Notes under the pieces: model-generated
Databases searched by the model: none
What the model was told of the DNA's origin: nothing
Seen by the model: the letters and a program-made list of their open reading frames with translations, nothing else
Assembly: GCA_024741835.1 (NCBI GenBank)
Contig: JAENRP010000132.1
Location: 1 to 64,000, forward strand
Reading direction: 5' to 3'
Length of the DNA: 64,000 nt
Source: Diplocarpon mali
Taxonomy: Eukaryota; Ascomycota; Leotiomycetes; Helotiales; Drepanopezizaceae
Position numbers and translations under genes: made by a program
Part shown: positions 3,993 to 63,738 of the stretch, in pieces
Layout of the letters: every line of letters starts with the position of its first letter
Numbering within the stretch: position 1 is the first letter of the stretch

Positions 3993-4465
3993 AACTTTTA
4001 AGCCAGACTTATAAATAGATTCCTTTAAGGAAAGTATACTTTCTGCCCTAATATAATTAAGCGAGGATAAAGAGAATAGATAGACTCTTAAGCTAGGATT
4101 ATAAGTGAAATTTGCGAAAATGATCCTTAAGCTAGGATTATAAGTAGATTATAAAGTATTTTTAAAGATGACTTTTAAGCTAAGATTATAAGTGAATTTA
4201 ATAGAAATAACTCTTAGGCTAAGACTGCAAGTAGATTCTATAGATTTACTAATAATAACTCTTAGGCTAAGATCGTAAGTGAAATTCGCGGAAATGACTC
4301 TTAAGCTAGGACTATAAGTGAAATTCGCAAATTCATTAGAAATAACTCTTAAGCTAAGACCGTAAGTAGATCTTGCTACTTCTAGGAAATCGACTCTTAA
4401 GCCAGGACTATAAGTAGATCTTGCAGTTTTATTAAAAACGACTCCTAAGCTAGGCTTACAATTAG
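3993..4465 (+). repeat. In-frame array of ten 26-bp palindromic elements in copia B
   Basis: Copies start at 3993, 4083, 4122, 4170, 4209, 4257, 4296, 4344, 4392 and 4440, all variants of ACTCYTARGCC-N-GGACYGYAAGT. From the second copy on, steps are only 39 or 48 bp, multiples of three, so every copy is read in the polyprotein frame as T-L-K-L/P-G/R-L-Q*-V (the Q codon is now usually TAA or TAG). The array lies in the linker between the protease/GAG-pre-integrase part and integrase. It looks superficially like a repeat-spacer array but is coding DNA. Confidence 0.9.
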
Positions 4466-7400
4466 AAAATAGTAAAACCTTAAACTACTATTACTAGTCC
4501 TTTTTAGCCGCCGATAATAAAGCATCGATTAATAATAGGCTATTAAAGCTATTAGAAGCCGAAAGCCTATTAAAGTATTAGCTAATATATAAAAGATTTG
4601 CATATCTAAGGCTAGAGAAATTAAAGGGCCTATATAAGGTCTTAACCTTAAAATAGAAGATTTAAATACTAAAGGATCGCCTAGTATACCGAATTTATAA
4701 GCTAATAAAACTTTAAAATCGGATATAAACTAAGCTTAGTTTATAAAAAGATTTAATACTAGTACTAATATCTATTGATATTACTAAACTATTTATAACC
4801 TTAATTAAAGGAAATAATTAGTTTTTTTAAATAGTAGATAATTCTACTTAATAAATATAGACTATTTGCGCTAGGACTAAATTTAAGCTTATAGAAAAGC
4901 TAGAAACTTAGAAAGTAATAGAAGAACGCTAGACCTAGTTAAAGCTAATAGCTATTAGGTCTAATAATATATTAAAGATTAGGGCAAAGCTTAATAAATA
5001 AGTAAAATAAGGTGTTTATTATAAACTAATTATAATATATAAAGGTTCCTATTAGAATAGCATTGCTAAGCAAAGCATTTAGTAAGTAAAGACTGACTAT
5101 CGCGCTCTACTATAAGATACTAACTTACTATTAGAATTTTAAGACCTTGCGGTTAAGGCAAACGTATACTTGCGAAATAGAATAGATAATAAACTAATAG
5201 TTAATAGCACCCGAATATTGCTATATAAGGCATATTTCAAATAGAAACTAAGCCTAGACTATATCTATGTCTTTAAAAGCGTCTGCTATTCCTATATTAG
5301 CCTAAAGTCCTAGCCTATAGGTATAAAGAGCAAGAAGCTAATAGATTAAGGTAGAAAGTATATATTTATTAAGTATATTAAATAGATAATAAAGTAATAG
5401 ATAGTAAATGCGCTAGATCTAAGGTAAGTAATTATATCCTTAATAGTTAAGTTTAATAAATCTTAAAATAGGAAGGAGCTGTCTTTAAAGCTTTATATAC
5501 CTAAAGATTCATAAGGTATACTAATCAATAGTAATACTATTAAGTCGAACTAATAACCCCTTTCTCTTAGCTTAGGTATATTAAGCGTACCCGCTGATCA
5601 ACGACCTACTAATCGCTTAAAGGCCGAATAGACTATTCCTATTATCTGCGAACTACTTAAAGTATAGAACAACTTTAATATTATTATCCCTTTAGTTAAA
5701 GAACCTATAGTAAATGATATTCCTAAAATAGGTATAAGTAATAATAAGCCTCTACTACTAGAAAGCGCTTCCTTAGATAATAAGCCTATAGAACCTATAG
5801 CTGAACCTACGCCTTTGAAGAGGAATAGAGACCTAGAATTAGAAGATACCTTAGATAAACGCAAGTCTAAGCGTATTTAGGCTATAATAGCGCATAGGAT
5901 CTATAAGCTCGAACTTTAATAAAGCTTCGATAAAGATAATACGTTCCTAGCCACTAGGGGAATAATGAAAATCTCTCTTTTAAAGACGTATAATAAAGCT
6001 ATTAATAATTTAAAGAATAGAGTAGTATAGAATAAGGCAATCTAAGAGGAGATAAGTTCTCTTACTGCGAATAGCATATAGATAAAGGAACTAATGCCAA
6101 AGGATATAAACCTAGTTTTAATAAAGTAGGTCTTTATAATTAAGATATATGTAAATAGGACCCTAGAATATTATAAGGTAAGGCTTATAGCTAAAGGCTT
6201 CTCTTAATAGTATAAAGAAGACTACTTTAATATATTTGCGCCGATAGTTCGCATAGATACCCTTTGTATATTTATAGTAATAGTAATTGCTAAGGACTTT
6301 AAATGCAGATAGTATAATATTAAAAATGCATTTATTAAAGCGATTATAAAGGAACGGATTTTTCTCTCCTAACCTAATAGTATTCCTATACGCGCTAGCC
6401 ACTCTTTCTATATACTCCGCAGTATCTATAGGCTAAAGCAATCAGCTTATAATTAGAACCTTTTATATAGTTCTGCTTTAATAGAAATAGGATTCATTTA
6501 AAGCCTAGCTAACCCTTATCTATTTACCTATGCTAAGTATAGAATCAAGTTGCTATTATATATTAATAATATTGCTATAGCTGTAAAAACAACTACTTAA
6601 TTAGATTGGTTCTTTATAATAATTTAGAAACATTTTAATATTAAGGATCTAAGGGGAATTTATAAGATCCTTAGCATTTGCGTTATAAGGAACCGCTCTA
6701 CTTAAGAACTCTGGTTAGACTAAGAGTAATATATTAAGAAGATCTTAGACTAAATAGGACTCTTCGCTTATACTCCCAACTTTAAGCTAAAGTATACTCT
6801 AATCGAAGGAAAGTATAATAAGTTAAAGCCTATTAATGAAAATAAGTAAAAAGGAGATTTGAAGAAGTACTAATAGGATATTAGAGCGATTATATATACT
6901 ATAGTATATATAAGACCAGATATCGCCTTTATTATAAGGCAACTTAGTTAGAACTTAAAGGATTTAATAATTCGATATAAGAATATAGTTAAGCGACTTA
7001 AAAGGTACCTTTAATTAATAATCATATAGAAAGTAAGATATAGACTAATAAAATATATAAGTGTAAAGCTTAAGGTATATACCGATTCTAACTAGGTAAA
7101 TATAAAAGGTCGGAAAAGTATATTTAAAAGCGTAGTAGTACTATATGGCAGACCTATATTATAAGGAAGTAAGAAGTAGAAATCAATAGCTATTATAAGT
7201 ACTAAGGCCGAATATATATTAATATTATCAAATTATAAGTAAGGATTATAAATTACCTAAGTTTTAAAAGATATAGGTTTCGCTAAGTATATTAAATAAG
7301 ATAGGAATTATATTAATCTTTAAGTAGATAATATAAAAGCGATTGCACTTATAAAGAATCTATACTTATATAAGCGATTAAAATATATCGATATTACCTA

Positions 7401-7573
7401 CTACTTTATCTATAACCTTATTATAAAGAATAAGTTATTAATTACCTATATTCTAATTAATCGAATAGTAGTAGATGGATTTATAAAGCTATTAAAGATA
7501 ATTGCAAAGTTCAAAGCATTTAAAGATATGCTAGAATTGCAAAAGATAGTAAGGGCTTAGTAGGCTTAAGGAC

Positions 7574-7724
7574 GACTCCTAGGCCTGCTTTATAAGTTAG
7601 GTTATATAGTCTTATAAAGGAAAGTTTTTAAATCGACTCCTAGGCCTAGACCGCGAGTTAAGTTATATAGTCTTATAAAGGAATGCTTTTGGGAAAATTA
7701 ACTCCTAGTCCTACCCTGCGAGTA
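7574..7724 (+). repeat. Three palindromic elements at the copia B polyprotein tail
   Basis: Copies at 7574-7599, 7635-7660 and 7700-7724, each followed by a shared sequence (GTTATATAGTCTTATAAAGGA after the first two, without its last base). The middle copy is in the pol frame and reads STPRPRPRV; the first and third are in another frame. They lie just after RNase H, so they extend or follow the C-terminus. Confidence 0.85.
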
Positions 7725-12563: not shown

Positions 12564-15511
12564 TCAACCAGATTCTCCAAATGCTAAAAATCTCAGCAGT
12601 CGTTTTGCAGGCCTTTCCCTCTCGTTTTCCCATCTTATCTCTGCCTCAACAAATTTCACCACCGCAGCACGCGTCCTCCTCATATTCTCAGCATAAAACT
12701 CCTGTAGCCGCACTGTGTTGTTACGCATAGAAGAGGCAGCAGTCTTTGCAGCGAGTGTCCAAACAGTCAATTGGTTTGTAGCAGTGTAGCTCATCTCCAG
12801 GTCAGAGATAGTAGCTTTAATGTCTTTAAGCCAGGCCCCTCGGTGAAGAGAAAATCGTCCCTCATTTAAAATCTCGCGCTCCAGATCCTTTTCCTTAATG
12901 ATCTGCTGTGATATTGTGTTTGATTCAAGCTTTTGGGTTTGCTCAGCAGAATCCAAAGTGAGTATGACAGCGTCAAGGAGCTCAAACAATGTTTTTACGT
13001 AGTTCGTTTTCTTTTCGGTCTCCTCTAAGCGCTGTTCAAGATCGGATGCTTCAGATCCTGCCATTTCGTGATATCTTTTCCTCATTTCTTGAGCAGACAC
13101 AGACGCAGACGCATCAGGAGTATCTTATAGGGAAGTTAGTCCATTTCAAAGTACAAAGACCAATAGCAAGAGAGCTACTCACAGTCTTTATTCTCAGAGC
13201 CATATGGTGACACTTTCGTAATAGGAGAGAGACAGGCCGCTTCGTCAGCTTGAAGTAGAAACGCCCAGTGCTCCTCCCAGACAACAAACAAGGCCCAATC
13301 ACCGGGTACATTTTCAAGCACAGCTTGGAAGCCATCCAGGTCAATTTCGCAGGTCTTGACAATGGCCTCTAGCGCAGTGCGTTGAGACAGGACTCGGGTA
13401 TCACAGCTCACCACAGGGCTCATAGAACGAGACATAGGATCAGGGGGCTCAAGATACCACCCACTATCATCATCGATGGCATTACGATCCTCAACCTCGG
13501 GCGGATGCCCTAGTTGTGAAGGAGATCCTTTTGTCGATAGTGGATCGAAAGTAGATTCCAAGCATATACTTAAATCTAGTGGAGAATCTGCTGCTTGTCG
13601 ATGGTTAACGTCCGATGAATTGGAGGGCTCGCGAGTGGGCGTTTGCTGCTGGAGGGATGATGGAAGAAGCGAGCGCGAGGAGGATCCTTGACTTGAGACT
13701 GCCGTTGAGACCTCGACAGGGTGTGATTTCTGTCTTTGCAATAATAGGTATGCTTGAAGTCTTGATTGCATCTCTTTCCTGGTCGAGGCTGCGTTGAAGT
13801 TCCATTCCTTATCACCTGAAGAGATCTGCTGACAACTGAGAAGAAAGCTATGCGGACCCTTAACAAAACAGGATAGGTAGGCAAGAACGTAGACGCCACA
13901 GTCATAAGAGTTATACTGCCGAGGCAGCGTGGTAGCATGCTTCCACGCGATATCTTTGCTGCGAACGGTGACCTGGGCTCTGCTCTCACCTTCTGCCTTG
14001 ATGTACGCCGCCAGCTTAAAATAGATCAAGCGGTTGTTCTCGTTACCGATGGCATCCATGCTGTCCATTGTTGTAATTTGGAAAGTTGGAGCAGTGTTGG
14101 AATCATTCCCGGTAGCAGATGAGGACGTAGACGCTGAGACGTTGGTGATGATAGCCAGAACCCAGTGGACATTACCTCGGTTTATCGGCAAAATCATGTG
14201 CTGTTTCTTGAAGATGTTCGCTTCCTCATTTATCCACTTCTGAATAGCGGGATAGTTGATTTCATACCCAGGCAGCAGCAATTGTGCAGACCCGGAGCTT
14301 GCCAACTTTTCAAAGAAGAATGTTGACACAGAAAACATGCTTGTAATGCCGGCCAGAATGAGAGCTGTGCATGCGTTGATTAACTCGTCGTTGAGCCATG
14401 TATTGCCCGTCAACCTGTCAAAATCCCCCTTGCGAACCTCTTGCTTGTTGATGAGCAAGGTCTCATCATCTCGCCAGCGCAGGACTTCTGTTGCACCTTT
14501 CTGCTCATGTTCCGATTGTCTTGCTGGTTGCCACCATGGTAGACCTGTTTTGAAGTTTGTTCGCCTGTATATAGCCACAGAATCTGGCAAGTCCCGATCA
14601 GGTATACACGTGTCATCGAAGTCGTGCCCAGCCCCAGAGGGCATTGGAGCTCGGCGACCATATTCTACCTCGACGGTCTTATCAACTGCGTAGTCCGAAA
14701 CCGCATGAGAGGAATCTTCCTGCAAGTTCCCTGCCACAGAGCTTCCTTCGCCCTCCTCGTCTTCTTGCGCATTATCATCAGGCTTAGGTCCCTGAAAAGA
14801 CTCTTCCTCCAAGTTCCCTGCGAAAAAGATTCCTTTGCCCTTATCCTCGCCCTCGCCGTCGCCCTCGCCCTCAGCCATCGCAAGGTCTTCTGCCCCAGAT
14901 GCGACTATCAACCTCTCGTTTGGAATGGGGTCAACTTTCAGAGCTGGTTTTCTTTCGCCGGCTGCTTGCTGAGTGTGTGATGCCGGTACCGAAGAGCCGC
15001 CATCCAACAGCGGAGGATGCATCATCTTCTCTGCTCTCCTGACGTCCACCAGAGTGAAATCTGTCTTGTGACTGGAGAAGTCCGATATCGTCTTCCGACG
15101 GCTATCTCGAGCCGACCTCAAGGCTCGCAGAAGCTTCAGGAAGTCCGTTTCATGATACTTCTTCGCGATTCGAATGAGGAGCTGGAGGGAATCCCGGGAC
15201 TTCACTACAGCCATACCACAGCCTAGACACAAATCCCAATAACCTTCGAGCCCAAGGAGGCGGACTAGAGCTGCAATCAAACTTTTTTGGTTCTGGTTCA
15301 GCATCAGGTAGAATTTTTCAAACTGCACCTCACCAGTAATCCTCAATACCGACTTCCGGATCCTACCCGATGCGAAGACCCATTCGGTAAAGGACAGGTT
15401 CGGATCAAGCGTTTCCTTGATATAGGCTTGTTTTACTGCCTGCCAACTCTGAAGAATAGCGTCGCGCGACAGATTTAAATCGAGTGCTGCAAGAGCCTGC
15501 TCTAGATCCAT
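12564..15511 (-). CDS. Ulp1-like C48 cysteine peptidase with C-terminal coiled coil, two exons
   Basis: Predicted SUMO-type cysteine protease of the Ulp1/SENP fold, probably 962 residues. Exon 1 is 15511-13183 and exon 2 is 13123-12564. The 59-nt intron (13124-13182) begins GTGAGT, has CTAAC about 10 nt before the acceptor, and ends AAG. Splicing removes the in-frame TAG at 13175-13177 and joins phase-1 exons as KDY-TPDASAS. The start MDLEQALAAL is chosen because the 51 codons upstream are low complexity. The catalytic domain covers about residues 355-560: TWLNDELIN 371-379, His449 in NVHWVLA, Asp483 in TMDSMD, Gln532 and Cys538 in QYNSYDCGVY, so the triad and oxyanion Gln are present with Ulp1 spacing. 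An acidic segment with a duplicated AGNL motif lies near 230-270. Residues 775 to the end are Glu/Lys/Arg-rich and likely coiled coil. No RIP damage. The substrate is unknown; such genes also occur in lineage-specific fungal families and inside some DNA transposons, but no transposase is adjacent. Confidence 0.85.
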
Positions 15512-16556
15512 GGATAGGGTGATGGTAGGGATAGCGGAGGGCGGGAATGAGGACGAGGGCGAGTAAGATCTTTGGATTCGGATCGCAGGTCTTTGCAGGA
15601 GCAGAGAGCGTATCGTGCCTGGGCATCTCCCTGGCTCACCTATACCAAGTCCCGAGTGTCCCAATTGTGCCTCGCCAGTAGCTCGGTCTTCACAAGGAAA
15701 TTGTTAGTAGATGGTCTTGGGATTTTGCGAGGACGCGTACCAGCTGGCTCTCTGCGATCGTCTACCTGCTACGTTCTGTACAGGTCTGTAACTGGCCTTG
15801 AAGTCGTGTGTACCGGTTCCCTCCACCTGCCGTTCAAGTGGGAGCCTCCTCAACGTGCCCGAGTCATTCGAGATACTCTCATTGATACGTTCGCTATCTC
15901 CCTTGCTCTGTCCAGAGAGAGGGGCTGCTGCCTGCCGCGAGGAATCAGTACAATGCCGCGGGGAGGCGAATGCAGAGAAGTGGAAGAGAGGTGAAAGAGA
16001 GGAGGAAGAAGAGAAGCAGAGATTTTTAACACGACGCACACGGGGATCGGGCGAGGACCTACCGTGCCTGCGTGTTGTTAAAGGTGACTGGGAGCAGCTT
16101 CTAGAATCGGCTGTCGACGCACTGGAAAAGCCGCTGGTGACTTCATCGACGAACTCCCGGAAAATCTCCTTTTCACCATCATCATTGTCACCCTCGTCCT
16201 CGCCCTCGAACGCTCGATACCGAGCCTCGGTGCAGCAACTCGAGTCCTTCCACCATGGCGACGACCATCACGGCGGCAGTCGTTACCAGGAGGATAATAG
16301 CGATAGTTATGACGAGGAGTAGGGCGAGGAGGTTACGGCCAATGATTGCGGCAGCGATTACCACGAGAATTGCGGCGACGCAATTACTAGCACGACGATT
16401 AAAGCGAAGATTATTTCGAGGAGGATTGTGAAGACCATAAGCGGGAAGCTCGCGAGAACAATGATCATGTGAGCGCACGGAGGCGACGGCGAGGATAGCA
16501 ATAGCGAGATTGACGAGGACGGTTTCGCTATCGAGAGGCCAGGTCCGAGGCGGAGG
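15512..16556. other. Upstream region of the Ulp1-like gene
   Basis: GC-balanced sequence that should contain the divergent promoter. A possible 5'-UTR donor (GTGAGC near 15635, minus strand) is visible but unproven. Many short open frames overlap on both strands, as expected in GC-rich DNA. Confidence 0.35.
15798..16322 (+). CDS. Doubtful open frame, Ser-rich with acidic C-terminus
   Basis: A 174-codon plus-strand frame whose second half (KGDWEQLLESAVDALEKP, then Ser/Pro-rich, ending DNSDSYDEE) reads like protein. The first half (Cys/Arg/Glu-rich) does not. It could be the last exon of a gene or a decayed fragment. No homologue is recognised, and the opposite strand is open as well. Low confidence. 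Confidence 0.2.
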   Translation: MKSCVPVPSTCRSSGSLLNVPESFEILSLIRSLSPLLCPERGAAACREESVQCRGEANAEKWKRGEREEEEEKQRFLTRRTRGSGEDLPCLRVVKGDWEQLLESAVDALEKPLVTSSTNSRKISFSPSSLSPSSSPSNARYRASVQQLESFHHGDDHHGGSRYQEDNSDSYDEE

Positions 16557-18667: not shown

Positions 18668-18693
18668 CACTCCTAGGCCTAGCCTACGAGTAG
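18668..18693 (+). repeat. Palindromic element in gypsy leader/gag start
   Basis: Full copy (ACTCCTAGGCC-T-AGCCTACGAGT), near the start of gag. Orthologous copies lie at 55717-55742 and 63713-63738 in the two other family members, so this insertion is ancestral to the family. Confidence 0.85.
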
Positions 18694-19930
18694 GAATATA
18701 AAAATGTAATTTTATATAACTCGAGTTCTTTACCTTCCCCTTTGATAACTATACTTGCTTTTTTAATATCGATATTAGAAAATATTAAAAATATCAATTT
18801 TGAATATCCTATTAACCCTTTGCCCGAATCTTTTTAAGCTTGTCTTAATTACTTTAAGATTGACTCAGATTCTGAAAACTCTTTAGAATACCTTAAGCCT
18901 TATATTCGACCTAGCTCTCCTCCTATCGAAATAAATAAAGTAATAATAGCTGCCTTTAAAGCTATTACTAATTATTTTCCCTTTCCTAGTTCCCCTAGCG
19001 CTCCTTATTTCACTAGAGCTAATATTACTAATTTCCTTAAATAATATAAGGAGACTTATTATAATTTTAGCATTAGACTTAATAAGATAATCAATCAACT
19101 TCCTTACTACTATAACTAATCTAATAAAGATATTATCAAATCTCTACTTAAGTAGAAGCTTCGCAAGTCTTAGGAACTACTTATTAAGGCTCTTAAGTTT
19201 GAATTCCGAGAATTTAATAGATAGCAGATTTGCGATACTTTAGCTTTCTTAAAGGAATTTATTCTAATTACTTAAACTCCTAAGGAACTTAAGAACTACT
19301 ATTAGACTTTTACTTATATATCGAATACCTTAATTAGCTAGAAAATACTTAATAAAGTTGAAAGAGGCTGCCTTTTCTTACTTAGATTACCTACTAGCCT
19401 TAGAAATAAGATCATCAAGTATTTTAAGATCGATAAGTAAGATCTTATAACATTCGCCTTATTTAAGGAATTCTCGGCCTTTGCTTTAAAATCAGATCTT
19501 AGTAAAAGAACTATTAATACTATAGAGTAGGAAAAAGCCTTTACTCCCTCTTATACTAAAGACCTTAAGAGCTTGGTGCAAGAATATTCAAAGGCTCTAA
19601 AGGTTATTAAAGAAGTAAAGAGAAATCCAATAGTAATTCCCTTTACTCGCAGGCCTAGCCTAAGAGTAAAATTTGCCTTAAAAATCAAGGAACTTAAAGC
19701 CCAGTTTTCTAAACTCTATATCTAATATTTAGAAACCTTAATCGAAGGCCTTCTTTAAGAAAATCATTATACCTTTTAGTTTAATAATCGATAGGCTTTA
19801 AAGGGTAAAAACTAGCACGCGAACCTTAAATACTTAAATCCAGCTTTCCTTAAGTTGAATTAGCGAGTTGCTACCTTAAAAAGGTACGATAATTGTATAC
19901 GATTATATTAAAGAAATTTTTAAATTATCA
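18690..19930 (+). pseudogene. RIP-degraded gypsy gag of the short element
   Basis: Plus-strand frame with blocks INFEYPINPLPES near 18.8 kb, FTRANITNFLK near 19.02 kb and LRLPTSLRNKIIKYF near 19.39 kb, interrupted by TAG/TAA. It is colinear with the gag at about 55.6-54.0 kb (minus strand). A palindromic element at 19644-19669 is read as FTRRPSLRVKF in the gag frame. No zinc knuckle is visible before the frame decays. Confidence 0.75.
19644..19669 (+). repeat. Palindromic element in gag
   Basis: ACTCGCAGGCC-T-AGCCTAAGAGT, in frame as TRRPSLRV. The orthologous copy is at 54708-54733 in the giant element. Confidence 0.85.
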
Positions 19931-20074: not shown

Positions 20075-20100
20075 GACTTATAGGCCCAGCCTAGGAGTTA
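20075..20100 (+). repeat. Palindromic element after gag
   Basis: ACTTATAGGCC-C-AGCCTAGGAGT, in the non-gag 3' part of the short gypsy element. Confidence 0.85.
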
Positions 20101-20198: not shown

Positions 20199-20245
20199 CA
20201 CTCGCAGGCCTGACCCGCGAGTTAAAAAAAAAAAAAAAAAAAAAA
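20199..20245 (+). repeat. Palindromic element followed by a 22-A tract
   Basis: A well preserved copy (ACTCGCAGGCC-T-GACCCGCGAGT, 20199-20224) runs directly into 22 consecutive A residues (20224-20245). A second A-rich association is at 36152. The poly-A may be a microsatellite rather than a tail. Confidence 0.8.
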
Positions 20246-36151: not shown

Positions 36152-36177
36152 AACTCGCGGGCCTGGCCCGGGAGTAA
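36152..36177. repeat. Best preserved palindromic element
   Basis: ACTCGCGGGCC-T-GGCCCGGGAGT; the two 11-nt arms are complementary except for one position. Nearly unmutated and outside any reading frame, downstream of copia C pol and followed by an A-tract. Confidence 0.9.
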
Positions 36178-38064: not shown

Positions 38065-38138
38065 GACTTGCGGTCCCGGCCTAGGAGTGAAATTATCGTA
38101 AGAGTTAGAATTGACTCGCGGTCCTGGCCTAGGAGTGA
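38065..38138 (-). repeat. Two in-frame palindromic elements between integrase and reverse transcriptase of copia C
   Basis: Copies 38065-38090 and 38113-38138, 48 bp apart as in the copia B array. Both are in the pol frame and read FTPRPGPRVNS and FTPRPGPQVNS within a still-open stretch (37972-38256). Confidence 0.9.
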
Positions 38139-39548: not shown

Positions 39549-39640
39549 GACTCCTAGGCCCGGCCTACGAGTGGAAATTAGCCCTAGGGAGGAGTTGCCT
39601 CCTAATAAGGAATTGACTCCTAGGCCTGGCTCGCAAGTGA
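39549..39640 (-). repeat. Two in-frame palindromic elements between zinc knuckle and protease of copia C
   Basis: Copies 39549-39574 and 39615-39640, read STRRPGLGVSS and LTCEPGLGVNS in the gag/protease frame (open 39504-39755). The steps differ from the other pair, so these are separate insertions. Confidence 0.9.
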
Positions 39641-41388: not shown

Positions 41389-41414
41389 ACCTACGGGCTG
41401 GGCCTAGGAGTTAG
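41389..41414 (-). repeat. Palindromic element downstream of ORF X2
   Basis: ACCTACGGGCT-G-GGCCTAGGAGT, after the X2 stop codon and next to the assembly gap. Confidence 0.8.
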
Positions 41415-41806: not shown

Positions 41807-41832
41807 AAGTTGCAGGCTAGGCCTAGGAGTTA
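41807..41832 (-). repeat. Palindromic element in X2, codon 1033
   Basis: In frame as ITPRPSLQLDL; matches the X1 copy at codon 1040. Confidence 0.85.
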
Positions 41833-42628: not shown

Positions 42629-42654
42629 AACCTGCGAGTTAGGCCTAGGAGTCA
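42629..42654 (-). repeat. Palindromic element in X2, codon 759
   Basis: In frame as LTPRPNSQVNL; matches the X1 copy at codon 745. Confidence 0.85.
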
Positions 42655-43858: not shown

Positions 43859-43884
43859 AACCTATAGGCTAGGCTTATAAGTCA
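43859..43884 (-). repeat. Palindromic element in X2, codon 349
   Basis: In frame as LTYKPSLxVRI. No counterpart in X1, so gained in X2 or lost in X1. Confidence 0.85.
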
Positions 43885-44044: not shown

Positions 44045-44070
44045 TACCTATAGGCCAGGCCTATAGGTCA
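44045..44070 (-). repeat. Palindromic element in X2, codon 287
   Basis: In frame as LTYRPGLxVEV; nearly perfect palindrome ACCTATAGGCC-A-GGCCTATAGGT; matches the X1 copy at codon 282. Confidence 0.88.
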
Positions 44071-45561: not shown

Positions 45562-45693
45562 TTAATTCTCATTTTTCGGCGATTTCTCAGCTTTAGGGAC
45601 CTCTTTTAAAGGATCTTCTATTAATACTCCTAGATTTAGTGACTAAGGTTTATCCGAACCTTCTTATAGACTTAAGCTAGCTAAGTCCAACCT

Positions 45694-45719
45694 TACTTGC
45701 AGGCTGGGCTTGCGAGTCA
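45694..45719 (-). repeat. Palindromic element in X1, codon 1040
   Basis: In frame as LTRKPSLQVRL. Confidence 0.85.
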
Positions 45720-46578: not shown

Positions 46579-46604
46579 GACTTATAGGCTAAGACCGCGA
46601 GTGA
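46579..46604 (-). repeat. Palindromic element in X1, codon 745
   Basis: In frame as FTRGLSLxVNF. Confidence 0.85.
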
Positions 46605-47964: not shown

Positions 47965-47990
47965 AATTCCTAGTCTAGGACCGCGAGTCA
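47965..47990 (-). repeat. Palindromic element in X1, codon 282
   Basis: In frame as LTRGPRLGIKN, within a still-open stretch. Confidence 0.88.
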
Positions 47991-49227: not shown

Positions 49228-49253
49228 TACTTATAAGACTAGCTTATAGGTCA
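49228..49253 (-). repeat. Palindromic element in integrase tail
   Basis: In the RT/integrase frame as LTYKLVLxV, just before the pol stop. Confidence 0.8.
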
Positions 49254-50662
49254 AATTGGAAAAATCTTAGTCTTTATCTAAGGGTTTAAAATTGCTTATA
49301 TTACTATCAGTTCTTATAAAAGATTCGGAGGTTATATCAATTTCTAATTCGTCTTCTAAGGGGAATAAGGTCTAGTCGCATTAATAAAAGCGCTTCAGTC
49401 GGTTAGCTGCAAAGGTTCCTTTGATATCAATTCTATTAAGTTCCTAAAGAGAATAGTATTCCTTTTCTTCCTACTCAAACTTAACCTTAAATAGACCAAG
49501 CTATTAATAGTCAAGTTTAATATTTATAGATATATTAATACTTTTTATAATATTATAAACTAGGATAAGATTATCTTTTTAAATAGGGTATATTTTAAGT
49601 ACTTTAGAAGTAGCCTATACTTCCTTAGCTTTTTCCTAATATTATTTCTTTTATAGAATAATTTCCTCTATATCTATATCTTAGAGCTTAAGTTATTAGC
49701 ATCTTATTATAAGTAAATTAGAACGGTTCCGAATTTGACTATAATCAAACAATCTTTAAATAGGCTATTAGGATTTAAAAGGGAGCTATACCTCTCTGCT
49801 ATAGATAAGGAAGAATAGTATAACTCCAATCAGTTTATAGATTATCGTTTAATAAGTAAAGAGTATTTTATAAAAGCGTTTTATCTAATCCTTAAATCCT
49901 TTATAAGTAACTTTGGATAGACTATTAAGAATATTATAGTATCCTTATTCTACTACTCTATTAGCTTTCGAGTTATATACTAAGATTTGAACCCATTTGA
50001 TGCTATATTTTCATAAGAAAGCTTTAACTATTCCTTTGTTTTTAAGGCCTCTATTAATAGTTAATCTATTAAAAAGTCTATAGCGATAGATTACGTCTTT
50101 TTAAAGGAACTTTATAATAGATTTAAAGTTAGTAGATCTTAAAGGTTGTCCTTTAAGTTATCCTAATAGGTCTTCCTTTACTAAAATAAAATATATTATC
50201 CTATTCTTAATAGTTAGTACTTATATAATATTAAAGCTGACTTTATAGAAAAGGCCTAATAGCTAAGTTAAGAATAAGGGATTTTCCTTATAACTAGGTT
50301 TTCATTTCTAATAAGAGATACAACTCTTTATAAAAGCTTTATAGTCTTTAAAAGAGCCTTTCTAAAAGAATTTTCTTAAGAGTTAGTAGTAAGTGGACTT
50401 AGCTTCTTAGTAGCCAGTTTCCTTATAAATATCCTAAATAGCCTTAGCCCTTAGTTTTTCGTCGTCTAAGTAGAGTTATATAGGGAATAAGTTATCGCTC
50501 CTTTTAAACAATCGTCTTCCTTATATTAGATAAATTAAAGCTTTAGCTTTGAATTTCTAAAAATCCTTAAGAGCAACTATCTTTAGTTATTTAAATATAA
50601 TTAAAAACTTTGCGATTTCTTTAAAGTTACTTAAGTAGTTAGGTAATAAAATTCTCTTATTT

Positions 50663-50688
50663 AACTCGCGGGCTAAGCTTACGAGTTA
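50663..50688 (-). repeat. Palindromic element between RNase H and integrase, off-frame
   Basis: Well preserved ACTCGCGGGCT-A-AGCTTACGAGT. Here the surrounding frame reads LVSLARELNK, so this copy is not in the usual T-x-R-P phase. Confidence 0.8.
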
Positions 50689-52629
50689 AGTCCCTTTAAG
50701 GCGATATATTAATAAATAACCAACTTTGTTTTCTACCCACTTATTAATATCTATTTTATCTGCTTTAATCAAATTAAAGGGGTAGGGCCGAGTTCTTTTT
50801 AAAAGGCCGTTAGTAGTAGTATTTTTTATTCCTAGAATATATTTGACTTTAAAGTCTATCAGTCTTATCTAAGCAATCCATTTTATTAGCAAGGCTTTTA
50901 ATAGGTCGCTTGCAGCTCTATTTAATTATTCTACTAGCACTTTAGCATTAGTTTTAAAAATGAAGTAAGTGCTATAGAGGTCGCTTCTTATCTTTTTTAT
51001 TGCCTTTAGAGCGCCTTTGCATTCTTATTTAATAGTATTATACTTTATCTCTACTAGATTCTAAAGACTACTTTTAAAGTGAGCTAGATGTCTTTTCTAT
51101 TAGCTATTAGCTTATTAAAAGATAGCACCCCATTTGATTAAGCTTATATTAACTATTAGTATAATTGGCCTAGCGTCAGCTCTATAGTCTATTTTAATTA
51201 AATAAGGCGCCTTAAGCAACGCTTGCTTTAGTTGTTTTATAGCCTCTATTTAAGGTTTCTCCTATTGAAACTTAGCCCCTTTCTAAAATAAGGAGTAAAT
51301 AGGTGCTGCCTTTTTAATAAAATCCTTAATCTAAATGCAATAGTATACTATAATACTAATAAACGCGCGAGCTTCTACTATATCGTCATACTTCTTCCAT
51401 TTGTCGATTTTAAGTACTTTAGCCCTTTAAGGACTTCGGCTATTAGAATTAGTAATAAAACTAACAATTTCTATTAATAGAAGATAGTATTATAACTTTG
51501 GACCAACTGTTGCTCTTGCCCTTTCGAATTATATAAGCACCTAATCTAAGTTCTAAATATGTTCTATTATAAATCGCTATATATTAAAAAGAACTTCTTT
51601 ATAGTTATAAAATGATTTTGATCCTTTTACTCTTATATCATCTATATAAAGGAGTACAATATTAGGTATATAATCTACTAATATTTTATAGATTACTTAG
51701 ACAAATTGAGCGATCGAATTTATAGCCTCTTAAGGTAATCTTATTATCTAAAGTAGCTTAAAAGGGGTTTGAATTACTATTATATCTTTCGATTTAATAT
51801 TAAGAATAAATTGGTTATATTTAAAGAAGAAGTTAATAAGAGAGCTATAGGTTAATCCTGCGAATTCATTTAAGAGCTTATCTATATTTGAAGGAACGTT
51901 GGCGTCCCTAACTATTACTCGGTTCATCTTTACTACTACTATTATTAGTTTGTAAGTTCCCTTTTCTTTTTTAGCAACTAAGAACCATTTATTCTTATAA
52001 GGGCTATTATAGAACTTAAGAACACTTTGCTTTAGCCTATCCTTTAATATTTCGATTACCTTTTCTTAAAGAGCTTTAAGAACCTTGAATATTTTCTCTT
52101 ATTAGGCTTTATAAGGTATTATCTTAATTTTAATATAAGGCGTGACCTCTTTTTAAATCTGGCTAAGTTCCGTCTAGTTAAAAGCTAAGGCGTCCTCTTG
52201 ATTTATTAAGGTTTTATAAAGTAGTTCGCATTCTTATTCTATTAAATTATCTCCAATTTTTAGTATATTAAAATATTCTTTTATTAGCTAATATCTAATG
52301 GATTTATTAGAAAATCTACTTATAATAAACTTGTCGAATTTGCCACCCGGCTTCGAAGGTCGAAGCTTCTTATCTTATTTAAACTAATCATTTAATCCTT
52401 TAGGCTTTAAGCTATTAGAGATTCCCTAATCTACTAGTTGTACTTTGTCAGCCTTGCTTTTATATATAGTTCGAATATTAGCTAGTACTATGCTTCTCTA
52501 CTTCTTTCCTTTTTTATCAAATCCTATAAAACGGTCCGAATTTTCCTTTTTAAAAATAAATAAAAGATTTTCTAAATTATTAATTTGAAGTGCGTAAATG
52601 GAAATGTTATTAGTAATTTTATTGTTTTT

Positions 52630-52655
52630 CACTTGCGGGTCTAGCCTATAAGTGG
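52630..52655 (-). repeat. Palindromic element in protease-RT linker
   Basis: In the RT frame as TTYRLDPQVKN. Confidence 0.82.
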
Positions 52656-52791
52656 TTTTTAAGTTTTTTAAAATAATTAGTAAATTGTTGAAATTTGTAA
52701 AATAAACTCTCTTCTCTACCTTATTTTTCTTTTTTCTTAATTGTTAAGCCGATAAAACGCTAATTATACTATTTTTTAAAATTCTAGATTT

Positions 52792-52817
52792 AACTCCTAG
52801 TTTAAGACTGCGAGTCA
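52792..52817 (-). repeat. Second palindromic element in protease-RT linker
   Basis: In the RT frame as LTRSLKLGVKS, 162 bp (54 codons) from its neighbour. Confidence 0.82.
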
Positions 52818-54707
52818 AATTACTATTATTTAAAATCGGCAAACTTACCTTTCTTTTGCTATAACTCCTCGCTAAGTGCCTTCCTTTACTAGTATTAAGC
52901 TTAGCCCTTATGCTAACTAATCATTTCCTAAAACCTTATTCTAGAATTCGGCTATATCTTTTGCAATAATCATTTATCCTTTTAAAGATCGATCTGTATT
53001 TTAAAGACTAGCTTTTATAAGACTATCTTTAGGATAGTTAAATATTAGCTAAGATTTTAAAATAAAGGGCATTTTTAAAAGAATATCATTTGAAGAATTC
53101 TCTATTATTAGAAAGTTAATATAATTAACAATTCCTCTGACTTTAACCTTTATATTTTTTACCTATCTATTAAAATTGTATTTTAATCTAGAGATAGTCA
53201 AATAAATAAGGAGTCGATTGCTAATAATTATCAATTGAGCTATTTCTACTACTTTTCTAATTATTATATTAACTTCTAAACTATAATCGATCAAAGCCTT
53301 TACTTTAACTGATTCTTCTATTAAATAAATAATAATAGGGCTTTTTATTACAATTGCTAAATAATTTCGATTGATATTCTAAGATATTAAAGCTATTGCT
53401 ATAATATTATAATACCTTTAAGTTCTTTCGTTTTCTATAATCTAAAGACATTTAATTAAGGCTAAGTGCTTTTTAAAGTTCTTTTATATTACAATTTCCA
53501 TTTCCTTATTATTATTCAAATCTTTAAAGGTAATTAAGATATGCTTTCTTAGCACTTTATCAAAGCGTTTAATTAAACTAAATAGGTCTTTAAACGTAAG
53601 GTTAATTTGCTAAGCTATAATATTCTCTATAGCTTTCTCTATTGCGGTTAAACTAGCGTATTTATTAATGAATTTTTCCTATTTTAATATCTATCTCTTT
53701 CGCTTAAGGTTAAGGGTCTATGCAATAACTTTAACTTCTTAATCTTTAAGCTTAGAGCTATCTTTATCTATTATATCTCTGATCAATTTGTCTACTATAT
53801 TGGCTTTATCCTTATCTATTGTAGTTCTAGATTATTAGGTATCTTTTAGCATTTGGACTCTATATTAAGATTCCTAAGTTGCATATATTGATTTTTAGAC
53901 TTTGGCTAGTTTTATTAGTATTAAGGGAGTGGTAGATCTAAAAGGACGCTAAGTATTTTAAGGGTTTTTAAATATAGAAGTAGTATTAATATTAGCAGAT
54001 ACGTTATTATTAACCTATCTTAAGATAGAGATGCCTTTAACTTCTATAGCTATTTGATTAGAAGCTAGGTCCTTAAGAACTCCCTTAAGTAGGTTGCTAG
54101 TTGGACTAGTATATATATAAGTTGGAATTTTAGCGTTTATATCTATAATACGCTATCGTTCGACTAAATTCTCATCCTATTTTATACTATATATCATTAT
54201 TCAAATAGTCTATAACTATAAGCGATTCTAGTGCTTTTTAATAGGGATAGCTTTTAGCCTAGGATCTTTAATATAAAGCATCTTATACTTATTAATATAT
54301 ATGACCCTAGTATTAATAAAACAATGGAAAAGAGGGCAATTGTTACAATACTTATATAAAGTGTAATTGGGTTCTTTATTATTGCAAAAGTTGTAGGTTA
54401 GTCGTCTTCTATTGCTATTCCCTTAGTACTTTATAGCATTAATATTGGTAGAGTGCTAGTTGGGATTAATTTCTCTTTCTTTAATTAACTATTGAGTTCT
54501 TATATTAGCTAGTTGTTCCGAATAATAAGAAGCAAGAGTCTGGTAATAGGAACTACTGTATTAGCTTATAGTAGCTGAGTTTTGCCTATTATTAAATTAG
54601 AGAATATGCTATTTTTCTTATAAGAGATTATTAATCCTAATTTCTAAGCTTTAGATTTAGAATTCTATAAATTAGGTCTTAAGTTCCTTAATTCTAGGGT
54701 TGGATCT

Positions 54708-54733
54708 TACTCTTAGGTTAGGACCGCAAGTAA
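54708..54733 (-). repeat. Palindromic element in giant gypsy gag
   Basis: Read as FTCGPNLRV; orthologous to 19644-19669 in the short element. Confidence 0.82.
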
Positions 54734-55716
54734 AGGGTATAACTACTAGGTTCTTCTTTGCCTCCTCTATGACTTTTAAAGCCTTTGAGTATTCTTAGAC
54801 TAGGCTTTTGAGGTCTTTAGTATAGGAGGGAGTGGGGGCTTTTTCCTACTCTATAGTATTAATAGTTCTCTTACTAAGATCTGATTTTAAAGCAAAGGCT
54901 GCGAATTCTTCAAATAAGGCAAAGGTTATAAGGTCTTGCTTATTGATCTTAAAATGCTTGATGATCTTATTTTAAAGGCTAATAGGTAATTTAAGTAAGA
55001 AAAGGCGGCCTCTTTCAACTTCGCTAAGTATTTTCTAGCTGATTAAGGTATTTAATATATAAGTAAAAGTCCGATAATAGTTCTTAAGTTCCTTAGGAGT
55101 ATAAGTGATTAAAATAAATTCCTTTAAGAAAGCTAAGGTATCGCAAATCTGCTATCTATTAAATTTGCGAAATTCAGATTTAAGGACCTTAATAAGGAGT
55201 TCCTATAAATTATAAGTTTTCTATTTAGGAAGGGACTTAATAATATCCTTGCTTATATAATTATAGTAGTAAGGAAGTTAAGAAATTATATCCTTTTATA
55301 TAATATTAAAATTGTAATAAGTTTCTTTATATTACTTAAGGAAATTAGTAATATTGGCGCCTATAAAGTAAGGAGCGCTAAGGGAACTAAGGAGGGGAAA
55401 GTGACTAGTAATAGCCTTAAATGCGGCTATTATCATTTTATACTAACTATCTAAGTTGATAGAATCTATAAGGGGTAAAGGAGAAGCTTTGATATTACGA
55501 GATTGATTGCTAAGAGGAGTACTTTAAAATTCAAAAGGGCTTAAAGAATATTTAGAATTTGAGTTAATCTTAAAGTGATTAAGACGAGTTTAAAAAGATT
55601 TAAACAAAGGGTTAGTGAAAAGTTTAAAATTATTATTATTTTTAATATTTTCTAATATTAATATTAAAAAAGTAGGTAGTAGTCTTAAGTTGTTTAAGGA
55701 CGTCTTTTTATCCTCT

Positions 55717-55742
55717 TACTTATAAGCTAAGCCTAAGAGTAG
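55717..55742 (-). repeat. Palindromic element at gag start of giant gypsy
   Basis: Read as STLRLSLxVRG; orthologous to 18668-18693 and 63713-63738. Confidence 0.82.
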
Positions 55743-59080: not shown

Positions 59081-62000
59081 TTATACTATTAGTATAAATA
59101 GACTTAAAGTATTATTATTAGCTTTAGTAGATACTAAAGCCCTTAGTTACCTGTTTTTAAATCGTTCCCTTTTTATATATCTTTTAAAAGCGACTAGCTT
59201 TAAAATTCTTCCTCTTCTTACTCTTATTCCTATCTATAGATTTTAAAATACCATTTGCGCGCAAGCTATATACTATATACGCTTTTACTTAACATTTGAT
59301 AAAAGGCGTATTTATAACTGCCCTTAGGTTATTCTCAACCTAGGCTAGCGCGATACTATTATTAGAATTAAATAGATGCGCCGATTCTAATTCAAACTTG
59401 ATCCGAAGGAAAACCGATTTATATAGCCTTTATATTACCTCCTATTTCCCCAATTCGCAAAGGAAATCGTTATTCGTCTTCCCCCTTTTAAAGGACTTTA
59501 GATCCAATCTAATCATTAAGCTAATATTAACTATAAAGAACGGGAAATGGCTATAGATAAAGCTTAATAGATTAATAGAAGATAGTCTTGTATTAATTTG
59601 ATAGCCCTAACTAGGCGCAAGATCCCTATTGCTATTACTAAGCTAGCGCCCTTACCTATAACTAAGCTAGATCTAAGAAAACAGTCTAATACAAATCGAC
59701 TATAATCTAACCTTATTTGCAAATGCTTAAAAGCTGTAGTTCCTATTTGCGAAATTAGTACTAACGCCTTTTATTATAATATAAAGTATAAAGAGATTGA
59801 GTTCTTTTAAACTAATATTTATAAAGTGGATAGGATTCTAAAGGAAAGATATAAGCTTAAGAATCCTAATATTAAAAAGCTAATTAACGATCGACTTTTG
59901 AAATAGTACTAATCTCTAAGATAAGCCTTCTTAAAAAGGGATGTAGATACCCTCCCTTCCTATTAGTATTATAATTATAAGATATAGCTAAAAGGGCCTT
60001 TGCCTAACGCCTATTCGCCCTTTTATTATTAATCTACTAAGGAGCTTAAGGTTATAAAGGAGTACTTATTTAAGAATTTAGACAAAGGCTTTATTAAGAT
60101 AAGTACTAGCTCCTTTGCTTTGCTAGTACTATTTGTAAAGAAGGCCAACGGTAGCCTTTGATTTTATATAGACTACCGGAAGCTAAATGCACTAACTCAA
60201 AAGGACGCTTACCCGATTCTAAGGATAGACGAGCTTTTAAGGCAAGTATTTAAAGCCAAGATTTTTATAAAATTGGATATTTGAGCCGCTTTCAATTGGA
60301 TATAAATAGACCCTAAATTAAAGGAATATACTACCTTTCGAATAAGGTACGGATCCTATAAATGCAAGGTTCTCCTATTTAGCCTTTATAATAGACCTAG
60401 TACTTATTAGTAATATATAAATAATATTCTTTTAAATTACTTAAATAATTTTTATATAGTATATTTAAATAATATTTTAATTTACTTTAAGAATGTTAAA
60501 GAGCACTAAGGTTATATTGAAAAGGTATTAAAACGACTCTTAAAGGCTGGCCTTTAAATAGATATTAAGAAGTGCGAGTTTTATATTACTTAAACTTAAT
60601 ATTTTAAATATATTTTAATAATAACTAGGATTGAACTAGACCTTGAAAAGGTCGAACTACTGCGCAATTAAAAATACTTAAAAACTATTACTAAAGTAAA
60701 GTCTTACTTAGGATTTTGCAAGTTCTATTAATAATTTATTTGCAACTTTAGGCTAATTGCTAAACCTTTCTCTATTTTAACTCAACTGATAGTACTTTAG
60801 AATTAAATAGAAGAGTGCCGAATCGCTTTTAAAGAGCTTTGCAAGCAGTTGCTTTTAATTTAGCAGATTTACTATTTTGACCTTAACTTATTTATAAAGC
60901 TGGAAACTAATGCTTTCGATAGTATTGTCGCTAGAGTACTTTCTTAATAATACTCTAATAAGTAATAGTACCTAATTGGCTTCTATTTATATATACTCTT
61001 TAGCTACGAACCTAATTAGGAAATATATAATAAGGAACTCTTTACTATTATTAAATCTTATTATAAATAGAGACTTAAGCTTATATCACTTAAGGAGCGA
61101 GTTAATATTTACTTAGATTACCGCTCCTTTAAGTACTTTATAACTATTAAGGTTCTGACTGTGAAATAGTGCCGATAGATGGAATTTTTATCTAACTTTA
61201 ATTTTCGAATTATATATACTTTTAATAAAGATAACTAAAAGGCTGATATTATTAGCTGCTAAGAGTAGGATATGCTAGTTTATAAATAAGCAAAGCTAGA
61301 TAGCTAATCCTAAGTTCTGATTTCCCTAGCTTAGTTAGACCCTCGAATTAATACCGAATTAGCCGAAAAATTTCTCGCCGAATCTGCCAAAGGCACCTTA
61401 GCCTTAATATCCACTGATACTCTTAATTCGACCCTAAATCAACTTAAGGATTCCTTTAATTTAATCGAAAAGCTTTATTAAGATAATTGTAAATCCTTTT
61501 AAAAGATTTGTACTAACCTTCTTAAGAACTACTTCTTAAAAGACGGATTGCTTTACTTTAAGGAGCGTCTTTACGTATATTATAACACTCCCTTATACAC
61601 TTATCTAATTTAAGAAGCTTATAACTAACCTTTAAGCGCGCACCCTAGTAGCTTAAAGACCTATTAGCTTCTTGCTTTTAAGTACTATTAAGTCAGGATA
61701 GGTTCGGATTATAAAAGATTTATTGCAAACTGCAGACCTTATTAATTCTTATATTCGAAGATAATTAAATAATAAGGCCTTTTTTAGCCCCTTCCTATTC
61801 CTAACTATCTTATATAGTATTTATATATAGATTTTAAGGATTTTCCTCTTAATAAGTATAGTTTTGATCGAATCCTGATTTTTATAAACCGACTTAGTAA
61901 GAGCGCTATTATAATCCCTTATTAAAAAGATATCGACGCTTAAGGAACTGCCTAATTATTCATTTAATAGATATATTAATTCGGCTATACCTTAAAGATA

Positions 62001-62792
62001 ATTACCTTAGACCGAGGCCCCTAATTCATCTCCTTATTTTAAAGAGAGTTCTATTATATTATCAGTATTAAGATCAAACTCTTTATAGCATATTATAAGG
62101 AGACTAACGGCTAAACGGAGATTATAAATAAGTATATTAATTTAAGGTTACGGCCTTTTATTAATTACTATTAAGATAATTAGAATGAATTGATTCTATT
62201 AATAGATTATGTATAATCGATTCTCTTTTATACTTCGATTAGTATAACCTTATATTAGCTTAAGTATAGAGTTGCGCCTTAGATAAGTTAGGACTGGATC
62301 TTTTTAAAACTGTCCAGCTTATAGGAAAGATTAAACTAAGCAAAGGCTAGGCTAGTAGTAGAAAGGATGCACTTAGCTTAGGAGGTAGCGAAAGGCAATA
62401 TGGAATGCGCTTAGGAGAAAATGCGGAAGTCTATAAATCAATACTAAAGGGAGATTGATTAGAAACCTAAAGATATAGTCTACTTTTTAATAAAAAATCT
62501 TAAGAACTACCGCTTTAATAGGAAACTGGCCAATTAATAGGATAGCCCTTTTAAGGTTCTTAAGAAGGTAGGCAATTTATATTAAATCAAGCTGCCTATA
62601 GGTTTTATAATATATAATATCTTTATACTAAAGCTACTATTTAAAGATCCGCAGAACCCTTTGCTAAGTTAGGAATAACCCTGGCCTATTATAAAAAAGA
62701 TCGCTAAGTAAGAAGAGTATAAAGTGTTTAAGATACTAAGTATACGCCTATCTTAAGGGAACTTAGAGTACTAGGTCAAATGGATTAGTTAT
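59080..62792 (+). pseudogene. Chromodomain gypsy pol, RIP-degraded, 3' end cut by an LTR
   Basis: Plus strand: protease ALVDTKALSYLFLN near 59.13 kb (DSGA site degraded); reverse transcriptase about 60.0-60.6 kb with FYIDYRKLNALTxKDAYP, FIKLDI and VYLNNILIYF in place of YLDD; RNase H about 60.75-61.2 kb. Integrase is about 61.6-62.4 kb, with DRGPQFIS, then an NGQTE-type block near 62.1 kb. The end is a chromodomain start LEYQVKWISYYKD near 62.77 kb. The chromodomain, which in chromoviruses targets integration to heterochromatin, stops at 62793 where a giant-gypsy LTR begins. Confidence 0.85.
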
Positions 62793-63040
62793 TATAAAGA
62801 CCTGAGATGGATAGGTCTTGTGATATATATCATATGATCGGCGTAAGATAGTAGGAGGATAAAAGGGCCATCTTCTATATATAGAGATAGCGCGTGTTGC
62901 TATAGTACTAAATATACCTTATACTTAGGACTTGTTCCTAATATCTTATCTAAGAGAGCCCGCTTATGGTGCTTCCTCCTCTTGTTTTTAGGTCTTCCCT
63001 TAGGCCTATTCTTATATTATTCCTACTCTATCTTATATTA
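62793..63040 (+). repeat. 5' LTR of second giant-gypsy copy
   Basis: 248 bp, the same length as 40870-41117 and 56409-56656; the least mutated of the three. Confidence 0.85.
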
Positions 63041-63712
63041 GTAACCTATACAAGGACGATTTCTTAAGATTTCCGTCCTTATACGACCTTATTAATCTCT
63101 TAGTTTATAGACAAGAGATCGGCCTTTCGAAAAATACATCTTCGAAGCACTTATAGCATTTTAATCAACTTTAAAAATCTTATCTTTAAATCGCTTAATT
63201 ACTTAAAACTATCGATTTTCGTTTAATAACTATTAACAACCTTAGATTTTCCCTTTTCGGCTTTACTTTAAAAAACCCTTATTTTCTTCTTTAACTTTAA
63301 GATTTTCGGAATTTTCGGCTTCTTAGTATGAAAAGTTTAGCAAACCCTATAATAGCAATCTCAAATAGCAGTAGTTTCAAGTACTTAAGTAATACTAAGC
63401 GTAAACTCTAATTGGAAGTGCCTCTTTAGAATCTTTAGAAATCCAAATCTAATAATTTAGCCGCCTTAGCTTAATAGAACTTTAAAAATTGCCTTAGAAT
63501 CGTCTTTAAAGACCCCTTTATTCTAAGGACTAATAGGAATTAGCTTAAAGGCTAAGAAGAATCTTAGATATAAACCTTATCTTAGAAATTAGTCTTTAAT
63601 TAAGTAAACCTTATCTTATTACAATTAGTTGCAACGCTCTTATTAGCTATTTAATACTTACTTAAAATCTTTTAACAAACTTAGATTAAACTTTTAATAG
63701 AATCTGGAATTC

Positions 63713-63738
63713 TACTCCTAATCCCGGCCTATAAGTAA
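63713..63738 (+). repeat. Palindromic element at gag start of second giant-gypsy copy
   Basis: ACTCCTAATCC-C-GGCCTATAAGT; orthologous to 18668 and 55717. Confidence 0.82.

Follow-up and report, generated by a model that had tools for sequence, protein, structure and literature searches.

A short, GC-rich palindrome recurs at about 23 non-homologous positions of LTR-retrotransposons in Diplocarpon mali, where its carriers are two families of copia, one of gypsy, and a giant gypsy element together with its relative. We propose tentatively, and at close to even weight, that a palindromic coding mini-element was copied between LTR-retrotransposons across the copia/gypsy divide and then kept in frame. 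The palindrome predates the amplification of each carrier family in this genome, and its free mobility is not supported.

Occurrence of the palindrome in the window and in the genome

An earlier note on the 64,000-nucleotide stretch of DNA analysed here (the window) described a 23-bp palindromic element scattered through retrotransposons, with 37 copies. A transition-tolerant scan returned 39 stretches of the window at a score of at least 10, against 8, 6, 2, 10 and 6 in five first-order Markov shuffles. Thirty-four of the 39 are positions that recur in other loci or are part of the same array, and another, at 50664, is a good match of which a single copy was seen. The stretches at 17243, 27081 and 60794 were taken as chance look-alikes and that at 54791 as doubtful; these were left out, and 35 palindrome sites were accepted, close to the figure given before. 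With the pattern of the earlier note, 26 window stretches had five or fewer mismatches, and three shuffles gave none below six.

The genome-wide pattern search confirmed the element, with 315 exact-core copies in the fungus's own genome (49.4 Mb) against 0 for a reversed-pattern control. When up to two mismatches were allowed, there were 2309 forward and 2345 reverse matches, one place being able to score on both strands, against 7 and 2 in the controls. Shortness, high GC content and many copies are features of palindromic mobile mini-elements of the GC-cluster type. The core contains few CpA steps, and under the canonical rule of repeat-induced mutation such a sequence would resist, which could favour an artefact of C-to-T decay. 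The control counts nevertheless rule out a frequency expected from base composition, and leave chance, base composition or decay with a practically negligible probability as the origin of the palindrome.

Location in copia and gypsy elements

Copia B lies on the plus strand, with an RVT_2 domain at about 6097-6762. Nine palindromes were detected 5' of its RT, on the gag-protease side (3994..4463, plus strand), spaced by 39 or 48 nt from 4171 on and by two wider steps of 90 and 87 nt before. By coordinate arithmetic all nine are in the RT frame, in agreement with the in-frame array reported previously, for which ten copies had been counted. Three others (7575..7723, plus strand; spacing 61 and 65 nt) lie past the end of the copia B pol homology and are taken as non-coding. 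Another copia, at 36-40.7 kb on the minus strand, contains RVT_2 and gag_2 domains. Two palindromes in its integrase-RT linker (38066..38136, minus strand) are in the RVT_2 frame, and two in its gag-protease linker (39550..39638, plus strand) are inverted relative to its coding (minus) strand. A non-coding palindrome (36153..36175, minus strand; cluster 3, 12 copies) is located past the end of the pol homology of this copia (36256).

The giant gypsy element has its pol homology at 50947-52065, and no Pfam match was found in its downstream half (L012:901-5852). Minus-strand palindromes are present at 41389..41411 (cluster 21), 41808..41830 (cluster 20), 42630..42652 (cluster 19) and, in the 5' part, 55718..55740 (cluster 9). 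Those at 43860..43882 (cluster 25), 44046..44068 (cluster 24, symmetric type), 45695..45717 (cluster 10) and 46580..46602 (cluster 18) have no strand assigned. Two are in phase with pol, at 52631..52653 (minus strand, cluster 27) and, inverted, at 52793..52815 (plus strand, cluster 36); that at 50664..50686 (no strand assigned, cluster 41) is out of phase, and a second copy of it was not found. The plus-strand palindromes at 47966..47988 (cluster 23) and 54709..54731 (cluster 16) would be in inverted orientation, provided that pol marks the coding strand. A fragment carries a copy at 63714..63736 (plus strand, cluster 9), the same site as 55718. The relative of the giant gypsy contains one palindrome in its 5' part, at 18669..18691 (plus strand, cluster 9), and others at 19645..19667 (minus strand, cluster 16, the same site as 54709 of the giant gypsy) and at 20076..20098 (minus strand, cluster 28). 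The palindrome at 20200..20222 (no strand assigned, cluster 40) is symmetric, with G5/C19, and an A-run comes after it. The palindrome is also carried in other loci by a gypsy family with RT, RNase H and a weak integrase zinc domain.

Grouped by their flanking sequence, these sites support the claim that copia and gypsy families that are unrelated share the same palindrome, which occurs in either orientation and in polyprotein linkers. Descent of all copies within a single ancestral polyprotein lineage, named in the earlier note as the finding that would overturn its reading, does not hold because copia and gypsy elements are both carriers.

Codon phase and codon choice

Like protein-coding palindromes of the Rickettsia type, the sequence is present in frame in the coding sequence of unrelated genes. 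Frame statistics gave one codon phase (frame 0) at 14 of 19 assessed positions, and the array step was a multiple of 3 in all 53 coding array steps; the non-coding copia B array had nine steps of 61, 62, 64, 65 or 66 nt. The frame had been ascribed to a palindrome that is harmless whichever way it lands. This account is incomplete: the undecayed sequence, before C-to-T decay, is free of stops in each of the six frames, so stop avoidance alone cannot select frame 0, and we rejected it as the cause of the frame.

The detection left third codon positions 6 and 18 unconstrained, yet all 31 site groups have a pyrimidine at 6 and a purine at 18, the latter although CCR accounts for 22% of the Pro codons in the carrier elements. 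Positions 3 and 21 are also fixed, yet belong to the detection core.

Sequence symmetry

The core reads ACTC-S-YRGGCC-N-GGCCYR-S-GAGT, with a weaker RAWTY preference about 1 base outside each end. The palindrome is real, but the description as a 23-bp palindrome needs two corrections: it is not perfect, with C at both 5 and 19 (C·C, unpaired) in 246 of 315 exact-core copies, and its preference extends past 23 bp, -2 being always a pyrimidine and +25 always a purine (25 site groups). By site group, positions 5/19 are unpaired in 27 of 31, and positions 9/15 are G-C in 19, T-A in 5 and unpaired in 7. Site-specific pairing of the outer flanks was rejected (57/130 against 59.4 expected), and the outer RAWTY is therefore shared context and not a paired arm. 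Sites in copia, gypsy and the giant gypsy all show this asymmetry, with C at 5 as well as at 19. It keeps its own direction even where the palindrome is inverted relative to the coding strand, as in the gag-protease linker of the copia and at 52793, an argument that the copies derive from a common source.

A first count of transversions gave 18/1840 (0.0098) in the palindrome against 279/10726 (0.026) in the flanks, but the set contained short loci that had been picked for their palindrome, and two sites entered it twice. After removal of the short loci the figures were 13/1127 against 129/6653, and for non-exact copies only, again without these loci, 13/805 against 94/4727. The difference having shrunk in the recount, a lower substitution rate is not claimed here as DNA-level constraint. 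The low transversion rate of the core across 33 site groups is biased by the detection rule.

Filled sites and presence in relatives

Two sites were searched genome-wide, and all 40 copies scored at each, out of 175 and 239 candidates, were filled. At the giant gypsy site 45695..45717, 23-24 extra bases were present in 40 of 40 scored genome copies. At the gypsy RNase H-integrase site, 12 of the 40 scored copies gave one continuous alignment with 23 extra bases, and for the remaining 28 the alignment was split in two, with about 67-126 bases in between, as expected of arrays; a copy without extra bases was not found among the 40. All 49 single-site copies in long genome stretches were also filled, and 35 of these copies had not themselves been the ground for choosing the stretch. 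Together, the 40 copies scored at each of the two sites and these 49 include no empty allele with precise borders in the fungus's own genome. As all scored copies are filled, the palindrome is older than the amplification of each family here. No target-site duplication was accepted in a permutation test of 60 offset/width combinations (best p 0.007, next 0.014).

Exact-core copies on contigs up to about C520 were sampled at 51 loci, and all of them (20/20 long and 31/31 further short loci) are at recurrent element sites; presence outside one class of host sequence was not found in these 51. The mobility with filled and empty sites suggested earlier was thus not borne out. A palindromic element of the type of mitochondrial GC clusters or Rickettsia palindromic elements, freely mobile throughout the nuclear genome, would agree with the single copies scattered over about 13 positions in one giant element and with the occurrence of both orientations, but the sampled locations, the uniformly filled sites and the failure to find a duplication make it very improbable.

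In Diplocarpon coronariae, one copia contains TREPGPGV twice and TPGPGPRV three times, and a gypsy contains TPGPGPRV at three places (gag amino end, protease-RT and RNase H-integrase). The peptide pattern was not matched in protein alignments of a Rhynchosporium copia (50-53% identical) or of two Drepanopeziza gypsy proteins, absence in these other genera being meant at the level of protein alignments in which the linker aligns poorly. The lack of the peptide in these aligned relatives is counted in favour of the copying proposed below. Two further relatives, P0121 and P0126, have the peptides TREPGARV and TREPGPRV. A search with the array peptide among other proteins (about 820-2609 residues, 120 candidates) returned three D. 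coronariae proteins only, the query among them.

Possible origin of the palindrome

Selection could have favoured a peptide module, T-x-x-P-G-x-x-V, in polyprotein linkers, the palindrome following from complementary Gly-Pro codons. The prevalence of one phase among the 19 assessed positions is in line with this, as is the finding that transversions are frequent only at 9, 12 and 15 (third codon positions) and at 5 (33 site groups), and that position 14 varies by transversion only in two non-coding copia B groups. Seven of the eight first-/second-position pairs of TPGPGPRV are moreover complementary through the genetic code alone. However, the sequence is kept in non-coding copies (clusters 3, 4 and 17), inverted coding copies, in which the same DNA is read in reverse, encode another peptide, TREPGPGV, and positions 6 and 18 are fixed against the codon usage of the elements. 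Peptide selection alone does not fit the codon choice, the inverted copies or the non-coding copies, and we consider it unlikely. A functional nucleic-acid site, either an RNA hairpin or the site of a dimeric DNA- or RNA-binding protein, kept by selection in several retrotransposons, seems slightly less probable still. Half-sites, a free centre and semi-free positions do resemble a dimer site, and arms pair slightly better within sites than when exchanged (272/341 cells; 11 of 2000 exchanges reach 272). A perfect hairpin is nevertheless not kept, given the prevalent C·C at 5/19; the mean predicted energy of the 31 site majority forms is -5.9 kcal/mol against -19.0 kcal/mol for the perfect form, and divergence below that of the flanks was not established in the fairer recount. 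Part of this energy loss is attributable to C-to-T decay.

We infer the copying step between retrotransposons from the presence of one conserved, directional sequence at so many non-homologous positions. In a Diplocarpon lineage, a short palindromic coding element would have entered LTR-retrotransposons by copying many times over and in either orientation, each position being filled in a founder by such an event. Copying would most likely have occurred during element replication, either when reverse transcriptase switched templates among RNAs packaged together or through repair between retrotransposon copies. Some copies may then have multiplied locally into tandem arrays with units of 3n nt, and the frame would have been kept by purifying selection acting on the linkers of the polyprotein. 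The host family would have amplified once the site was filled, and C-to-T decay would have eroded the palindromes afterwards. Counted against copying is that no insertion event was observed, since neither an empty site nor a target-site duplication was found. Two further observations are counted on the same side: the excess of frame 0 goes beyond what stop avoidance explains, and much of the palindrome follows from the peptide TPGPGPRV alone. A more specific idea, conceivable though not probable, is that of a parasite of parasites. Such a palindromic mini-element, a few dozen bases long, would spread at reverse transcription only, by template switching inside virus-like particles, and would hence build up across superfamilies of LTR-retrotransposons but leave host DNA free. 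Its symmetry axis would lie on a third codon position, both orientations encoding a tolerable Gly-Pro linker.

Comparison with known palindromic repeats

Among the top matches listed, the titles and abstracts of the open-licence PMC literature contained no fungal nuclear coding palindrome of this kind. Sponge mitochondrial repetitive hairpin elements and Volvox organelle palindromes, termed hairpin-forming or selfish (PMC2800124, PMC2670323), are short and repeated as here, but organellar. Yeast mitochondrial GC clusters (GC42) are described as short GC-rich palindromes with conserved arms in AT-rich DNA (PMC4478555), and the present palindrome is likewise short and GC-rich with conserved arms; for the mitochondrial GC42, presence/absence positions and target-site nucleotides are reported, whereas neither empty sites nor duplications were found here. 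Coding palindromes have been described before, in Rickettsia (PMC10969869) and, under the name of PARCELs, in bacteria and in eukaryotic microalgae (PMC2996958). Rickettsia palindromic elements lie in frame inside protein-coding genes, as does the palindrome described here, but they are about 150 bp long and were reported in unrelated metabolic genes of a bacterium, whereas ours is 23-35 bp and resides in nuclear fungal retrotransposons. PARCELs share with it coding repeats with dyad symmetry, tandem arrays and, for some, a link to mobile elements. Compared by description, they differ in that their units are 75 nt long and encode an amphipathic domain of 25 residues, many of them within ORFs that also have membrane-targeting sequences; the array units here measure 39-75 nt around a 23-nt Gly-Pro-rich core. 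A nuclear case confined to retrotransposons and common to copia and gypsy would point to the exchange of very short sequence among retroelements that are not related, and would make the entry of palindromes into reading frames tractable for study.

Results

The palindrome occupies 35 sites in the window, part of contig C132. A pattern search of the genome (49.37 Mb, 676 contigs) returned 315 exact-core copies, versus none for a reversed control; with up to two mismatches, 2309 and 2345 matches were found on the two strands, versus 7 and 2 for the controls. The element described in the earlier note is far above chance, and its pattern is both unusual and well supported. Grouping by flanks placed 173 detected copies in 42 groups, nine of which were set aside as chance or doubtful. 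Once groups sharing an array or a site had been merged, a judgement from the listings, some 23 non-homologous positions remained. The giant gypsy accounts for 13 of them and its relative for two; the window copia (36-40.7 kb, minus strand) and another gypsy family have three each, and copia B has two. Likewise by judgement, the segments of the giant gypsy were treated as a single element because their order is constant across the window and four fetched loci (L005, L010, L012 and L016). This gypsy-like element spans at least 14 kb (41389-55740, minus strand); its downstream half gave no Pfam match in the L012 stretch with the same sites.

Confinement to retrotransposons was assessed on exact-core copies, with match listings reaching to about contig C402. 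Every such match within the first 20 long loci, chosen in contig order (C1 to C24), belonged to a recurrent site, L005:5004 included. A second sample, made up of 20 matches hand-picked on other contigs plus the 11 symmetric-type matches not yet covered, fell entirely into known site groups (31/31). The window also contains palindrome-free copia-like pol (24519-26051 and 32730-34253) and gypsy pol (59283-62810), where the only motif matches were taken as chance. The window's sole stop-to-stop ORF of at least 250 residues, at 13175-15703 (minus strand; 842 residues), carries a Ulp1-type Peptidase_C48 domain and is flanked on both sides by shorter open stretches; it may represent either a DNA transposon or a host gene.

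The earlier note had proposed in-frame insertion, and most assessed positions are in frame. Protein homology placed both linkers of the window copia, 9/9 palindromes of the copia B array and five in the other gypsy family in frame 0; the gag palindrome of the latter is off that frame, yet in frame in protein P0158. By coordinate arithmetic, giant-gypsy palindromes 52631 and 52793 are in phase with the pol match and 50664 is out of phase. Stop counts, in which some clusters are represented by one to three copies and which do not distinguish the strands because few stops appear in either frame-0 reading, were lowest in frame 0 on one strand for clusters 10, 19, 20, 23, 24 and 25, and did not single it out for clusters 9, 16, 18, 28 and 41. 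Overall, frame 0 applied at 14 of 19 assessed positions, the other four of 23 being non-coding or unreadable. Considering gaps of 30-75 only, unit length was a multiple of three in 53/53 steps of coding arrays, and in 2/9 steps of the non-coding copia B array (unit 61-66).

The possible mobility raised in the earlier note found no counterpart in pairs of filled and empty sites. At giant-gypsy site 45695, a joined-flank query, which read only the length of the extra bases, found 23 extra bases (once 24) in all 40 copies scored of 239 candidates. A gypsy site yielded 40 scored copies among 175 candidates: 12 had 23 extra bases, 28 had a longer array and none lacked extra bases. A further 49 copies in 21 long stretches (single-site representatives, 70-base flanks, array sites excluded) all had the palindrome, and their indels never exceeded 2; non-exact copies make up 35 of the 49, so their locus was not fetched on their account. 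An earlier tally, whose set included loci picked for the palindrome, gave 79/80 filled and one with 45 extra bases. Since all copies scored or found were filled, the palindrome appears to be fixed in this genome at the positions it occupies.

Around the core, in a profile that includes some site groups from one array, information content was at background up to -7 and elevated between -6 and -1; a second rise at positions 25 and 26 tails off weakly as far as 31. In fetched locus L023 (about 4926-5016), short tandem repeats containing T-runs (AAGGGGTGATTTTTTTTT...) adjoin the non-coding copia palindrome.

Discussion

The palindrome by itself proves little, because the TPGPGPRV peptide alone makes 7/8 first- and second-position pairs complementary. 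Palindromes in non-coding DNA, the same intrinsic asymmetry in inverted coding copies, and third positions 6 and 18 speak for ancestry at the DNA level; these two positions, free in detection, are pyrimidine and purine in 31/31 site groups, although CCR accounts for 22% of the elements' own Pro codons. Positions 3 and 21 are likewise fixed, although the detection core includes them. Within the core, frequent variation by transversion is limited to position 5 and to 9, 12 and 15, the last three being third codon positions, so the peptide, too, seems to have been under purifying selection. Pairing is not strictly maintained, although two alternative pairs occur at 9/15: just 13 exact-core copies pair fully (G5/C19), 246/315 have C.C at 5/19, and site majority forms fold at a mean of -5.9 kcal/mol, versus -19.0 for the perfect form. 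Simple duplication is disfavoured, as a site-by-site comparison showed no correspondence between the contexts on the left and on the right. The best reading is that the palindrome spread by copying between retrotransposons, the copying mechanism being inferred. Some post-palindrome spacers appear similar in the copia B array (3994-4463) and gypsy locus L021 (6906-7018; V-K-F-A-N-S, V-K-S-A-N-S); palindrome and spacer together may thus have been exchanged between copia and gypsy.

The translated L020 copia aligns along its entire length with a D. coronariae protein at 87%, which makes a Diplocarpon or a near relative the probable source of the DNA. In this copia, KRGRPPGSKNK adjoins the palindrome peptides in the integrase-RT linker (minus strand, about 5100). 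This stretch, which we take to be AT-hook-like, is nearly identical in Rhynchosporium relatives. One published D. coronariae assembly is reported to contain 20.74% LTR/Copia and 5.67% Ty3 elements (PMC11527701). In the alignment, D. coronariae copia protein P0001 shows two TREPGPGV blocks ahead of the protease and three TPGPGPRV blocks in the integrase-RT linker; such blocks are absent from Rhynchosporium, Blumeria and the other aligned copia relatives covering these linkers. D. coronariae gypsy-family proteins carry TPGPGPRV in the gag amino end, protease-RT and RNase H-integrase. The strict peptide pattern, missing from Drepanopeziza proteins P0127 and P0129, occurred in six of 157 listed proteins (120 of 322 plus 37/37), four of them from D. 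coronariae. As the other two also match it, P0121 with TREPGARV in the RNase H-integrase linker and P0126 with TREPGPRV in the protease-RT linker, the palindromic element may extend beyond Diplocarpon.
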